From Prevotella sp. (GTDB lineage: Bacteria; Bacteroidota; Bacteroidia; Bacteroidales; Bacteroidaceae), in assembly GCA_017459445.1 (NCBI GenBank), contig JAFUDJ010000034.1, positions 1-49,956 on the forward strand: 49,956 nucleotides of DNA. The letters run 5' to 3'. This document shows positions 5,262 to 45,260 of this stretch, piece by piece. Each line of letters begins with the position of its first letter. The first letter of the stretch is position 1. The notes under the pieces were generated by a model, which ran no database searches, was not told the DNA's origin, and was given only the letters and a program-made list of their open reading frames with translations. A program made the position numbers and the translations under genes.

Positions 5262-5335
5262 TTTTCGATTTTTCGAAATTTCGAAATTTCGAGATTTCGA
5301 TTTCTCGGTAATTCGATTTCTCGGTAATTCGATTT
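5262..5335. repeat. 8-bp-period CG array in the glmM leader
   Basis: CG dinucleotides occur at 5266, 5274, 5282, 5290, 5298, 5306, 5314, 5322 and 5330, exactly every 8 bases, in units of the form AAATTTCG / AATTACCG / AGAAATCG as read toward glmM. The array ends about 25 bases before the glmM ATG. The rfbB leader (22171-22314) has the same period, consensus and orientation relative to its gene. Confidence 0.9.
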
Positions 5336-5350
5336 TCATTTATCATTTAG

Positions 5351-19299: not shown

Positions 19300-19325
19300 G
19301 TTGTTCTATGGTTAGTATCGGTGTG

Positions 19326-19356
19326 CAAAGATACTGCAAATCGGGCGAATTGCAAA
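19326..19356 (-). promoter_or_regulatory. Promoter of the subtilase-xseA-xseB genes
   Basis: Minus strand TTTG (19356-19353), 19 bases, TATCTTTG (19333-19326), 27 bases from the ATG at 19299. Confidence 0.75.
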
Positions 19357-19390: not shown

Positions 19391-19517
19391 ACTTTTATGC
19401 CAAACGGCGCGCACTTTTATGTCAAACAGCACGGACTTTTATCTTGAAAGTTGCGGACTTTTGACATAAAAGTCCGTTGCGTTTGACATAAAAGTCCGTA
19501 CGAAATGACATAAAAGT
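19391..19517. repeat. 22-bp-period palindromic array
   Basis: ACTTTTAT-type words start at 19391, 19413, 19435 and 19457, each exactly 22 bases apart. The last merges into the centre ACTTTTGACATAAAAGT. From there the inverted word ATAAAAGT ends at 19473, 19495 and 19517, again 22 apart. The whole can fold into one long imperfect hairpin of about 60 bp. It lies in the divergent gap between the subtilase gene and the MATE gene, between their promoters. No spacers, so not CRISPR. Compare 40005-40129. Confidence 0.9.
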
Positions 19518-19562
19518 GCGGAGCACATGACAGCATTCCTTGCGCTAATAAACGCTAAAAGA

Positions 19563-19594
19563 TTTGGCTGTTCAGACAATAAAGCGTACCTTTG
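19563..19594 (+). promoter_or_regulatory. Promoter of the MATE operon
   Basis: TTTG (19563-19566), 20 bases, TACCTTTG (19587-19594). Transcription would begin near 19600, which places the start codon at 19611 rather than at the in-frame ATG at 19527. Confidence 0.8.
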
Positions 19595-19610
19595 CACATT
19601 ATTTATATAT

Positions 19611-20960
19611 ATGACCAACAAGCAAGCAACCCTTGAGCTGGGCACAAAACCCGTCGGACAGCTGCTGGCGCAGTATGCCATGCCGGCCATTGTGGCCATG
19701 ACGGCATCCAGTCTCTACAACATCATCGACCGCGCCTTCATCGGCCAGGTGGTAGGTCCGGAGGCCATTGCGGGCCTGGGCATCACCTTCCCCTTCATGA
19801 ACCTGAGCGGAGCCTTCGGCGCCGCCGTCGGCGTGGGCGCCTCGACGTGCATCTCGGTGAGGTTAGGGCAGAAGGACTACAAGCGCGCGGAGAACCTGCT
19901 GGGCAACACCGTGACGCTGAACCTCATCATCGGCTTCCTCTTCATGGTGGTGTGCCTGATATTCCTGGACCCCATCCTGCGCTTCTTCGGAGCCTCCGAC
20001 GTCACGCTTCCATACGCCCGCGAGTTCATGACCGTCATCCTGTTAGGCAACATGGTGACGCACATGTACTTCGGCATGAATGCCGTGCTGCGCGCCGCCG
20101 GCAAGCCGCGCCACGCCATGTACGCCACGCTGTTCACCGTGCTGTGCAACATCGTGCTGGTCATCGCCTTCGTGTGGTGGCTGCGGTTAGGAATACGCGG
20201 CGCGGCACTGGCCACCGTCACCAGCCAGTCGCTGGCCCTGTGCTGGCAGATGTGGCTGTTCAGCGACAAGAGGGAAATCCTGCACCTGAAGCGGGGCATC
20301 TACCGGCTGAAGGCTGACTTGGTGCGCAACATCATAGCCATCGGCATATCGCCGTTCCTGATGAACGTCACGTCGTGCGTCATCGTCATCTTCATGAACA
20401 ACCAGTTCGTGCGCTATGGCGGCGACATGGCGGTGGGAGCCTACTCCATCGCCAACTCGGTGGTTATGGTGTTCTTCATGTTCGTCATGGGCATGAACCA
20501 GGGCATGCAGCCCATCGTAGGCTACAACTACGGGGCAGAGAAGTACGACCGCATGTTCCGCTGTCTGTGGCTGACCATCGCGTCGGCCACAGGAATCCTG
20601 CTGGTGGGATGGGCACTGTCGATGCTGTTTCCCGACAAGATTGCCCGCATCTTCACCACCGACCCGGAACTGATAGCCCTGTCGGCACGGGGCATCAAGC
20701 TGGACATGCTGGTGTTCTTCGTCGTCGCCTCGCAGGCCGTCATCACCAATTTCTTCCAGTGCATCGGCAAAGTGAAGGTCAGCATCTTCCTGTCGCTGTC
20801 GCGCCAGCTGTTCATGCTGCTGCCCATGGCCTACCTCTTCCCGCTGCTCTGGGAACTGGACGGCGTGTGGTACTCCATGCCGGCCAGCGACTTGGCGTCA
20901 TGCCTGATGACGCTGCCCATCCTGTGGTGGTACATGAAGAAAATAAGAATCAAGCAATAA
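19611..20960 (+). CDS. MATE family multidrug/cation antiporter
   Basis: 449 residues from ATG 19611. Twelve hydrophobic segments in two bundles of six, with the family-typical starts LLAQYAMPAIVAMTASSLYNIIDRAFIGQ and GMNQGMQPIVGYNYGAEKYDR. MATE proteins expel drugs and cationic compounds in exchange for Na+ or H+ across the inner membrane; the substrate is not predictable. The frame is open back to 19527, but that would lie upstream of the promoter and add a non-membrane MTAFLALINAKRF start, so it is rejected. It leads a plus-strand run with a cytidylate-kinase-like gene, a phosphodiesterase and rfbB. Confidence 0.92.
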   Translation: MTNKQATLELGTKPVGQLLAQYAMPAIVAMTASSLYNIIDRAFIGQVVGPEAIAGLGITFPFMNLSGAFGAAVGVGASTCISVRLGQKDYKRAENLLGNTVTLNLIIGFLFMVVCLIFLDPILRFFGASDVTLPYAREFMTVILLGNMVTHMYFGMNAVLRAAGKPRHAMYATLFTVLCNIVLVIAFVWWLRLGIRGAALATVTSQSLALCWQMWLFSDKREILHLKRGIYRLKADLVRNIIAIGISPFLMNVTSCVIVIFMNNQFVRYGGDMAVGAYSIANSVVMVFFMFVMGMNQGMQPIVGYNYGAEKYDRMFRCLWLTIASATGILLVGWALSMLFPDKIARIFTTDPELIALSARGIKLDMLVFFVVASQAVITNFFQCIGKVKVSIFLSLSRQLFMLLPMAYLFPLLWELDGVWYSMPASDLASCLMTLPILWWYMKKIRIKQ

Positions 20961-21689: not shown

Positions 21690-22181
21690 ATGAAAAAAAT
21701 CGGAATCATCAGCGACACACACAGCTACTGGGACCCGAAATACCTGCACTACTTCGAGCCGTGCGACGAGATATGGCACGCCGGCGACATCGGGTCGCTG
21801 GAAGTGGCCGAGAAACTGGCGGAGTTCCGGCCCTTGCGCGCCGTCTGCGGCAACTGCGACGGCGGCGACCTGCGGCTGATGTACCCCGAGGTGCTGCGCT
21901 GGAAGTGTGAGGACGTCGACGTGCTGATGAAGCACATCGGCGGCTACCCCGGCAACTACGACTACTCCATCCGTGGCCAGCTCTATGCCTCGCCGCCCCA
22001 GCTATTCATCGCCGGGCACTCGCATATCCTGAAGGTGAAGTTCGACAAGACCCTCAATCTGCTGCACATCAACCCCGGTGCCGCCGGCCTGCAAGGGTGG
22101 CACAAGGAGCGCACGCTGATAAGACTGACCATCGAAGGCAATAAATTCACCGATTGCGAAGTTATAACCCTGTCGAAATAA
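21690..22181 (+). CDS. YfcE/MJ0936-type metallophosphodiesterase
   Basis: 163 residues, calcineurin-like phosphoesterase. Metal-binding motifs in order: ISDTHSY (Asp8, His10), HAGDIGS, CGNCDGGD, and IAGHSH with the following NPGAAG. Such enzymes are manganese-dependent phosphodiesterases with activity mainly known on artificial substrates. The last codons (ACC CTG TCG AAA TAA) lie in the first units of the 8-bp array that leads rfbB. Confidence 0.88.
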   Translation: MKKIGIISDTHSYWDPKYLHYFEPCDEIWHAGDIGSLEVAEKLAEFRPLRAVCGNCDGGDLRLMYPEVLRWKCEDVDVLMKHIGGYPGNYDYSIRGQLYASPPQLFIAGHSHILKVKFDKTLNLLHINPGAAGLQGWHKERTLIRLTIEGNKFTDCEVITLSK

Positions 22182-22314
22182 CGTAATGCCGAAACCTCGA
22201 ATTACCGAAGCCTCGAAACCTCGAAATATCGAAACTTCGAAGCATCGAAACTTCGAAATACCGAAACATCGAAATAACGAAACATCGAAATACCGAAACA
22301 TCGAAATACCGAAA
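22171..22314 (+). repeat. 8-bp-period CGAAA array in the rfbB leader
   Basis: Eighteen consecutive 8-base units (NNNCGAAA; most often TACCGAAA and CATCGAAA alternating) without slippage. It starts inside the last codons of the phosphodiesterase gene and ends five bases before the rfbB ATG. Consensus and orientation relative to the gene match the glmM leader array (5262-5335). Confidence 0.93.
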
Positions 22315-39881: not shown

Positions 39882-40004
39882 CGACTAATTCGGCAAAATC
39901 CGACACGTTGACAACATTATTTAATATAATAAGCAGAAAAACCATGGCATTTCGCAGCGGGAATACTGCCGCCCGCTTCCTGATTTTATGGCAAACGAAA
40001 TCAT

Positions 40005-40129
40005 GTTTCTCCGCTAAACGTACCAAGTTTCTCCGCTAAACCGGTTTCATTTCTCCGGTAAACGAAGGAAGTTTAGCGGAGAAACTGACCTCGTTTACCG
40101 GAGAAACTTGGTACGTTTACCGGAGAAAC
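40005..40129. repeat. 22-bp-period palindromic array
   Basis: GTTTCTCCG-type words start at 40005, 40027 and 40049 (22 apart). The centre GTTTAGCGGAGAAAC starts at 40071. The inverted word CGGAGAAAC ends at 40085, 40107 and 40129 (22 apart). Unit number, period and central palindrome match the array at 19391-19517, while the sequence is unrelated. It also lies in a divergent gap. Confidence 0.9.
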
Positions 40130-40307
40130 TGACAACTGTCTGACTTTCTTGTCGTTGCCATGCGGGATAAAAGGGGCCGCCAACTGCCATCAATCCGGGG
40201 CAAAAGGAGCATGGAGCGAGCTGCCGCCAGGCCGCAAAAAACGTTAATTATCCCTAAAATAACGGCCATCGGGCGCGGGTACAGGGCAAGAAGAGAAAGA
40301 AAATGTG

Positions 40308-45178: not shown

Positions 45179-45260
45179 GCGCCTGTGGCGGAATTGGTAG
45201 ACGCGTTAGACTTAGGATCTAATGTTTCACGGCGTGCAGGTTCGAGTCCTGTCAGGCGCA
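45179..45260 (+). tRNA. tRNA-Leu (anticodon TAG)
   Basis: 82 bases. Acceptor stem GCGCCTG (45179-45185) pairs with CAGGCGC (45253-45259), discriminator A. Anticodon stem TTAGA/TCTAA with loop CTTAGGA gives TAG at 45213-45215. Long variable arm of class II type and T-loop GTTCGAGTC. CCA is not encoded. Read CTN, mainly CTA. It shares a transcript start region with purB. Confidence 0.96.

Follow-up and report, generated by a model that had tools for sequence, protein, structure and literature searches.

Bacterial intergenic repeats are usually sorted by sequence, and the nearest described thing to the arrays that we report here comes from Porphyromonas gingivalis, a member of the Bacteroidales. 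According to passages of the paper describing it, this element, BrickBuilt, is a 23-nt minisatellite within a MITE, with 19 copies in ATCC 33277 and a unit number that differs between strains (PMC4596501). As depicted there, it resembles our arrays in its repeat of two-turn size, its dispersed intergenic copies and its predicted stem-loops. However, BrickBuilt is made of spacerless direct repeats with a leader, a tail and IS5-like terminal inverted repeats, and it ranges from 1 to 22.8 units in those passages, whereas our arrays combine a conserved core with a variable spacer, have a mirror or palindrome geometry, use several unrelated cores, and hold six cores in the two arrays studied most closely (A and B) and mostly 5-7 in three other genomes, G040-G042. 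Passages of a second paper mention BrickBuilt only (PMC5771137).

Our window, by which we mean the whole stretch of 49,956 nucleotides that was analysed, belongs to a Prevotella sp. draft genome of 1.97 Mb that is 55% complete. REP/BIME elements offer a further comparison with what it contains: they too are palindromes, some of them species-specific, with many intergenic copies that are often in opposite orientation, but they are presented in passages of PMC3733652 as palindromes of 20-40 bp, the majority with a GTAG or CGTC tag, that mostly lie downstream of genes, whereas the pitch of our arrays is exactly two turns and B is without a constant tag. In B, for which this was examined, neither tag stands at the foot of the palindrome and no constant tetranucleotide adjoins the core. 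The 23 arrays of the host genome, instead of keeping to downstream positions in unidirectional or convergent gaps, are in divergent gaps in 12 cases, in tandem ones in 10 and in a convergent one in 1. The RAYT family (PF01797), which was matched in 18 of the 24 genomes searched, was detected neither in G003 and G012, which are each 99% complete and contain period-22 arrays, nor in G000 (55% complete). Because of tag, position and RAYT, a REP/RAYT reading was rejected. CRISPR arrays, with repeats of about 21-48 bp and unique spacers of about 26-72 bp, were likewise set aside, B having 15-bp cores, 7-bp spacers and an inversion at its centre.

Phased operator and iteron arrays, such as the met boxes of MetJ, the plasmid centromeres bound by ParR and the Pho boxes, occur at few loci per replicon. 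Our arrays would resemble them in offering short, repeated sites on a single face of the helix, where proteins can bind cooperatively, but they number tens per chromosome, beside unrelated genes and with cores that differ between species. In the titles and abstract beginnings of open-licence PMC papers we found no description of phase-locked palindrome arrays in Bacteroidota, and in passages of the RepRanger paper a single word beginning with Bacteroid occurs, in the genome table (PMC12306157). Here unrelated sequences share one two-turn spacing, so that surveys based on sequence would miss their relation.

Anatomy of the two arrays

Array A (19391-19517, 127 bp, no strand assigned) consists of three left and three right cores in a mirror arrangement. 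Its left cores, of type ACTTTTATGNCAAAC, occupy 19391-19405, 19413-19427 and 19435-19449, and its three inverted cores occupy 19459-19473, 19481-19495 and 19503-19517; the word ACTTTTAT begins at 19391, 19413 and 19435 in the left arm, ATAAAAGT finishes at 19473, 19495 and 19517 in the right arm, and the junction between them is ACTTTTGACATAAAAGT. These are the 22-base steps that an earlier, sequence-only reading of the window had pointed out. Its claim that the same word recurs at 19457 proved wrong: the word there is ACTTTTGA, inside the centre palindrome, so that A counts three left and three right cores, and the core starts (0, 22, 44 / 68, 90, 112) give a centre step of 24 bp from core to core.

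In the host genome A is found at 13 places including the window's own (12 other full-length copies, plus partial ones). In a recount that includes array C27:71519, all 13 have six cores with 22-bp steps in both arms, laid out as 3+3 in 10 copies, 2+4 in two and 4+2 in one; the A core profile was built from 8 of these 13 arrays. When a gap of anywhere from 3 to 33 bases was allowed, 56 TTTATGNCA pairs were found, all 56 at pitch 22. The copies have long segments in common, some in opposite orientation, which shows that the A cassette was copied.

Array B (40005-40129, no strand assigned) is built of six cores of 15 bp, GTTTCTCCGSTAAAC, half of them direct and half inverted, and bears out the description of a second array with the same geometry and an unrelated sequence. 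It occurs at 10 places in the host genome, the window's own and nine others, with a 3+3 layout in all ten, 7-bp variable spacers, and a pitch of 22 throughout, centre included. Core pairs number 20 forward and 20 reverse, and all 33 listed have pitch 22. Across the 60 cores of the ten arrays, 11 of the 15 positions are invariant and the mean information is 1.80 bits per position; the spacers have 0.50 bits per position and 32 of 40 are distinct.

Both A and B sit within longer mirrored arrays, and the degenerate units around B keep to the register. B has an A-type motif, ATTTTATGGCAAACG, as its outer left unit (39983-39997, + strand) and TGCCATCAAT as an outer right unit (40181-40195, + strand), both in register, the latter at a distance of eight units from the first core. 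The motif TGNCATNAAA, with at most two mismatches, has 67 occurrences in the outer arms of all ten B arrays together and extends out to eight units; 50 of the 67 fall in one of the 22 phases (p ~1e-52 for a given phase). Around A, 27 of 40 outer motif hits lie in phases 9-13; a possible degenerate outer unit of its right arm, TGACAGCATT (19528-19537, + strand), stands by eye near the 22-bp register of A and was left out of this phase count because of its three mismatches to the motif. Since B, too, is surrounded by outer units of an A-like type, two unrelated core types are found in one common register.

Arrays of other units are present in gaps of the same genome, with 8/16-bp TTTCGA-type units (window 5263-5337, 22173-22314 and others) and, elsewhere, with 7/14-bp TTCACTATTCACT-type units. 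The sole Rfam match in the window at the gathering threshold is a tRNA gene (45179-45260).

The same spacing in other genomes

As far as searched, A and B are private to the host species, since A has no DNA match in 39 related genomes (E 0.001), the B core pair is found in one of 120 genomes of the genus, the host genome, and in none of the others, and in G007, the nearest relative examined, the orthologous A gap is short and has neither motif, with subtilase and MATE neighbours that are 66% and 82% identical. The exact B pair pattern has no record in GTDB contigs, from which the host genome is possibly left out, and the exact A pair pattern has none in viral contigs; a triple TGNCATNAA pattern matches six viral contigs, with units that look unrelated to A and B. 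The sequence-only reading had proposed that A would be a chance duplication if related strains lacked the periodicity at orthologous gaps and the genome held no further arrays of this geometry. The G007 gap is indeed without an array, but many more such arrays exist in the host genome and in other species, and with 12 other copies of A and nine of B the arrays are not due to chance.

That the elements form a class set by geometry, as had been suggested, is upheld by the 13 copies of A, the 10 of B, the frequency of period 22 in relatives and the two-turn pitches of one core in two species. In stretches of five genomes of the same genus (G007, G016, G010, G003 and G012; 1.6 Mb), period 22 is the commonest, with 27 of 79 tandem arrays, followed by period 44 with 10 arrays; these stretches were not selected for arrays, but contigs of G007, G003 and G012 had already come up in earlier matches, and L347 contains an earlier TTTATGNCA pair match, counted as period 44. 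The share in the host genome, 30 of 87, is biased because the stretches were chosen around copies of A and B. A first loose scan for arrays gave 482 clusters, was judged to contain mostly coding noise and was replaced by other scans.

Reading the units yields the period-22 cores TTCCCAGCGTGGGAA (G007), AAAAGGTNACCTTTT (G010), AAGTATCATACTT (G003) and AAAAGSNNNSCTTTT (G012). Types in common are TGTCCAA/TTGGACA, in G003 and G012, and AAAAGGT, in one G003 array. The core AAAGGTNANCTTT, searched with a free gap allowing pitches 15-45, has matches in 2 of 40 genomes, G010 and G022, so cores are not strictly species-specific. All listed matches are 35 or 57 bases long in G010 (pitch 22 or 44) and 34 or 55 bases long in G022 (pitch 21 or 42); a two-turn rule predicts exactly this, a pitch of 21 in one species and of 22 in the other to the exclusion of any others.

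Palindromicity averages 0.62 in the period-22 arrays (n=57, including 30 of the host genome) versus 0.51 (sd 0.08) in column-permuted controls. Values of at least 0.80 are reached by 6 of the 57, by none of the 30 from the host genome (highest 0.71) and by a fraction of 0.00 of the controls, and they also occur at period 21 (3 of 14) and period 23 (1 of 5). As a good number of the period-22 arrays lack a clear palindrome, the class is not uniformly palindromic.

A triple-motif pattern of pitch 22 matches at least 107 stretches of GTDB contigs; several Bacteroidota MAGs are matched repeatedly, and other phyla too are among the listed matches (phytoplasmas, Shewanella, Nocardia). A search of eight genomes for core pairs returned 176+174 (forward + reverse) in G040 (UBA5515), 75+76 in G041 (UBA4866), 127+127 in G042 (CTSoil_023) and 41+41 in G047 (AS08sgBPME_458), with reversed controls of 0 in each; the cores being palindromic in these four, forward and reverse counts mostly see the same pairs. 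G045 and G046 had 6 and 9 pairs versus 0 in the reversed control, and G043 (1 vs 2) and G044 (20 vs 15) were not clearly above it. In G040 and G041, all listed matches have pitch 22, pitches 13-41 being allowed, and two core families, ATTCATGSCATGAAT and TATAATGSCATTATA, occur together, with mostly 5-7 cores per array. At L239:6097-6194 a third core type, CAATGSCATTG, alternates with CAACCGCATTG at pitch 22, and in G042 this array has contracted to a single unit.

Constraint on cores and spacing

Rates of change come from G040-G042, that is, from few loci and from other genomes than that of the window's species. In 12 orthologous array pairs (ten loci, two of them used twice, with L128/L236 aligned over only 39 flank columns), changes were found in 17 of 882 core positions, 43 of 363 spacer positions and 239 of 2363 flank positions, and the free centre base was changed in 9 of 63 cases. 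Cores differ from flanks with p ~1e-17, and for spacers versus flanks p = 0.31. The partners in this set had all been located through a core pattern, a source of bias, and the rates were therefore determined again with partners identified from the DNA similarity of the entire locus. In three such pairs, which count only partners with a still recognisable array and leave out two contracted ones, the inner ten core positions (r 2-12 minus the centre) were changed in 1 of 170 cases, spacers in 17 of 98, flanks in 110 of 646, the centre in 4 of 17 and the outer four core positions in 13 of 68. That clade thus has a constrained core of 11 bp.

Spacing is kept as well. Inside arrays there are 3 indels in 1308 columns (22, 88 and 22 bp), all multiples of 22; flanks have 32 in 2363 columns, none of them a multiple of 22. 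The lack of any in-array indel off the multiples of 22 has p ~2e-8, or 1e-4 with half the exposure, and one more 22-bp insertion within an array was seen among the locus-similarity pairs. In 2 of the 5 locus-similarity comparisons only one core of the array is left and 88 bp have been lost, which speaks against strong selection on unit number.

A putative binding protein and its rivals

A conserved core, a variable spacer and a fixed helical spacing are what characterizes phased protein-binding arrays, and all three are found here. We consider it reasonably probable that the arrays are phased binding sites of a putative DNA-binding protein, sites that were dispersed through copying and whose core and spacing are maintained by selection. 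A sequence-specific protein, probably a dimer, would recognise each core, which measures 15 bp in B and is a palindrome of 11 bp in UBA5515-type genomes. Because the cores are two helical turns apart, several units of the protein, six of them in A and B, would be aligned on the same side of the helix, where they could bind cooperatively. A constant core, a neutral spacer sequence, a fixed spacer length and a two-turn period are together signs of a protein touching its neighbour on the same face. In the host species the cores are asymmetric and flip within the array, which would produce a mirror-like assembly; in several other species they are true palindromes. The arrays would reach new intergenic sites when stretches of a few hundred base pairs are copied, after which whole units could be gained or lost by recombination, and core sequence and spacing would be held by purifying selection. 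This reading starts from the observed anatomy, geometry, dispersal and phase lock of the arrays, their core-versus-spacer constraint and their species-different cores, and it adds a putative protein, its cooperative binding and a presumed architectural role. The sequence-only reading had named a binding protein as a possible keeper of the arrays; the conserved cores and the strict two-turn spacing are as such a protein would have them, and the protein itself is what we infer.

A mobile element is the likely origin of the dispersal, but it leaves the constraint at orthologous copies unexplained. It is unlikely that the arrays are miniature mobile elements and nothing else, MITE-like as BrickBuilt is, with cores serving as transposase or recombinase sites, the geometry reflecting a synaptic complex and the conservation reflecting recent copying. 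Such elements would account for the six-core cassettes with common segments at unrelated sites, and for a 279-bp element present twice in one G041 locus, with one mismatch, 3.36 kb apart and in unrelated flanks; like MITEs, the cassettes of A and B and this duplicate are dispersed, near-identical copies with defined ends, and the copying foreseen from the window alone is supported by them. One G040 array, together with about 375 bp, is missing from the orthologous G041 gap, and this and the 279-bp duplicate indicate that arrays are gained or lost as blocks. At this occupied/empty comparison, the edges of which have diverged, inspection by eye showed no target-site duplication. L131 has partly inverted flanks with 116-nt arms that are 75% complementary. 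Against mobility as the whole explanation, no target-site duplication was seen by eye at the 279-bp duplicate; the transposase search, which covered the Y1 family (PF01797) only, detected none in the two 99% complete genomes with period-22 arrays; and orthologous copies keep their cores while the spacers drift, which selection for mobility does not explain.

Two observations touch on recombination at these sites. At L229:3742-7377 the two 279-bp elements, in direct orientation, flank genes for an AraC-type regulator, a Gcw_chp protein and an ammonium transporter, and the match of these three genes in G042 sits on another contig; the layout may have arisen when recombination at the array led to integration, or may stem from the assembly. 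An insertion-sequence-like end, TGACCCGTCCTGAATAAGGTTG, adjoins or is near arrays at L106, L111, L140 and L147 (G041, G040, G042), as if arrays attracted insertions, which may be compared with the reported targeting of REPs by insertion sequences.

It is improbable that the arrays work as RNA or single-strand hairpins, be it as terminators, attenuators or processed transcripts. Their inverted arms do give very stable predicted folds (-65 kcal/mol, z -9.9 for A; -79 kcal/mol, z -12.5 for B), and the statement that A can fold as one hairpin is correct to that extent. As the functional form, however, a single hairpin was rejected for B because its mirrored spacers do not pair: their columns pair at 0.50 versus 0.59 for columns of different arrays, and 2.45 of 7 positions pair versus 3.09 between different arrays. 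An RNA needs no fixed length of loop or spacer, yet in-array indels come only in multiples of 22, and neither A nor B has an Rfam match at the gathering threshold. Only 1 of the 23 host-genome arrays lies between convergent genes (background 10 of 75), and this, with the lack of conserved spacer pairing in B, led us to discard intrinsic terminators too.

The genes around the arrays bear on a further possibility, hardly a probable one, namely that the arrays are operators of one regulon whose regulator controls the adjacent promoters. A lies between a subtilase-family gene (PF00082; 17869-19299, - strand) and a MATE transporter gene (PF01554; 19527-20960, + strand, with its likely start codon at 19611), and B between the genes of a class II aminoacyl-tRNA synthetase (PF00587, PF03129; 38300-39841, - strand) and of DNA gyrase/topoisomerase IV subunit A (PF00521; 40354-43071, + strand). 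Promoter-like TANNTTTGY boxes, which we take to be the Bacteroidota -7 box, point outward from A, at 19325-19333 (- strand) for the leftward gene and at 19587-19595 (+ strand) for the rightward one. Of the 46 array sides, 15 have such a box pointing outward within 150 bp and 2 have one pointing inward, and in those A arrays that have an outward box it stands 34-86 bp from the array edge; this bias would also suit a local regulatory role. Yet the 46 neighbour proteins in the host genome are diverse, many of them housekeeping; any Pfam or NCBIfam family occurs in two of them at most, and the one-regulon reading was rejected since the neighbours are unrelated. The divergent setting stressed by the sequence-only reading is right for the gene pair of A, but a special tie is not supported: 12 of the 23 arrays are divergent versus 26 of the 75 background gaps that span at least 150 bp within the stretches analysed (the others being 39 tandem and 10 convergent), a non-significant excess (p = 0.15). 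Among 26 arrays of G040-G042, some of them mutual orthologues and all with a gene on both sides, 12 are tandem, 9 divergent and 5 convergent, much like background; the gene calls behind the orientation counts, here and in the host genome, are home-made ORF choices. Because the neighbours share no function and orientations are not clearly off background, a role in chromosome architecture or insulation would suit the arrays better than control of one regulon.

Neutral minisatellites, that is, slippage products with a period inherited from an ancestral unit, are very improbable, for although whole-unit variation (7 vs 3 in L133/L136) and the contraction of some arrays to one unit would suit them, this reading fails because cores change far less than their own spacers, and it is also at odds with unrelated cores of different species having the same period and with strongly diverged outer units keeping register.

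Returning to phased binding sites for a putative protein, a broader proposal can be made only tentatively. The arrays may form an element class of the Bacteroidota set by helical geometry, in which a fast-evolving putative protein, co-evolving with its core, would organise the chromosome between transcription units. With the same reserve, the class could be delimited by about 3-7 palindromic or mirrored cores, a pitch of 21 or 22 bp that is fixed per core within a species, and tens of arrays per genome. If a dedicated protein coats the arrays, this large bacterial group would possess an as yet undescribed system of chromosome architecture or insulation, with tens of sites in each genome, and a natural series of variants of core and pitch (21 versus 22 bp with the same core) would be at hand for testing how DNA phasing is read out.

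Other repeats of related dimensions were met with on the way. In L142, from a Chitinophagaceae MAG, about ten TGCCATCAACGTCTAC-type units, whose tails vary, form a direct minisatellite with a 22-bp period. Words similar to TTTATGTCRGT recur at an 11-bp, one-turn pitch in L050, L064 and L070 (G018) and in L067, L073 and L076 (G007), at several of these loci near AATTCTCTAGAGAATT palindromes, and may be a cousin of the two-turn array class.
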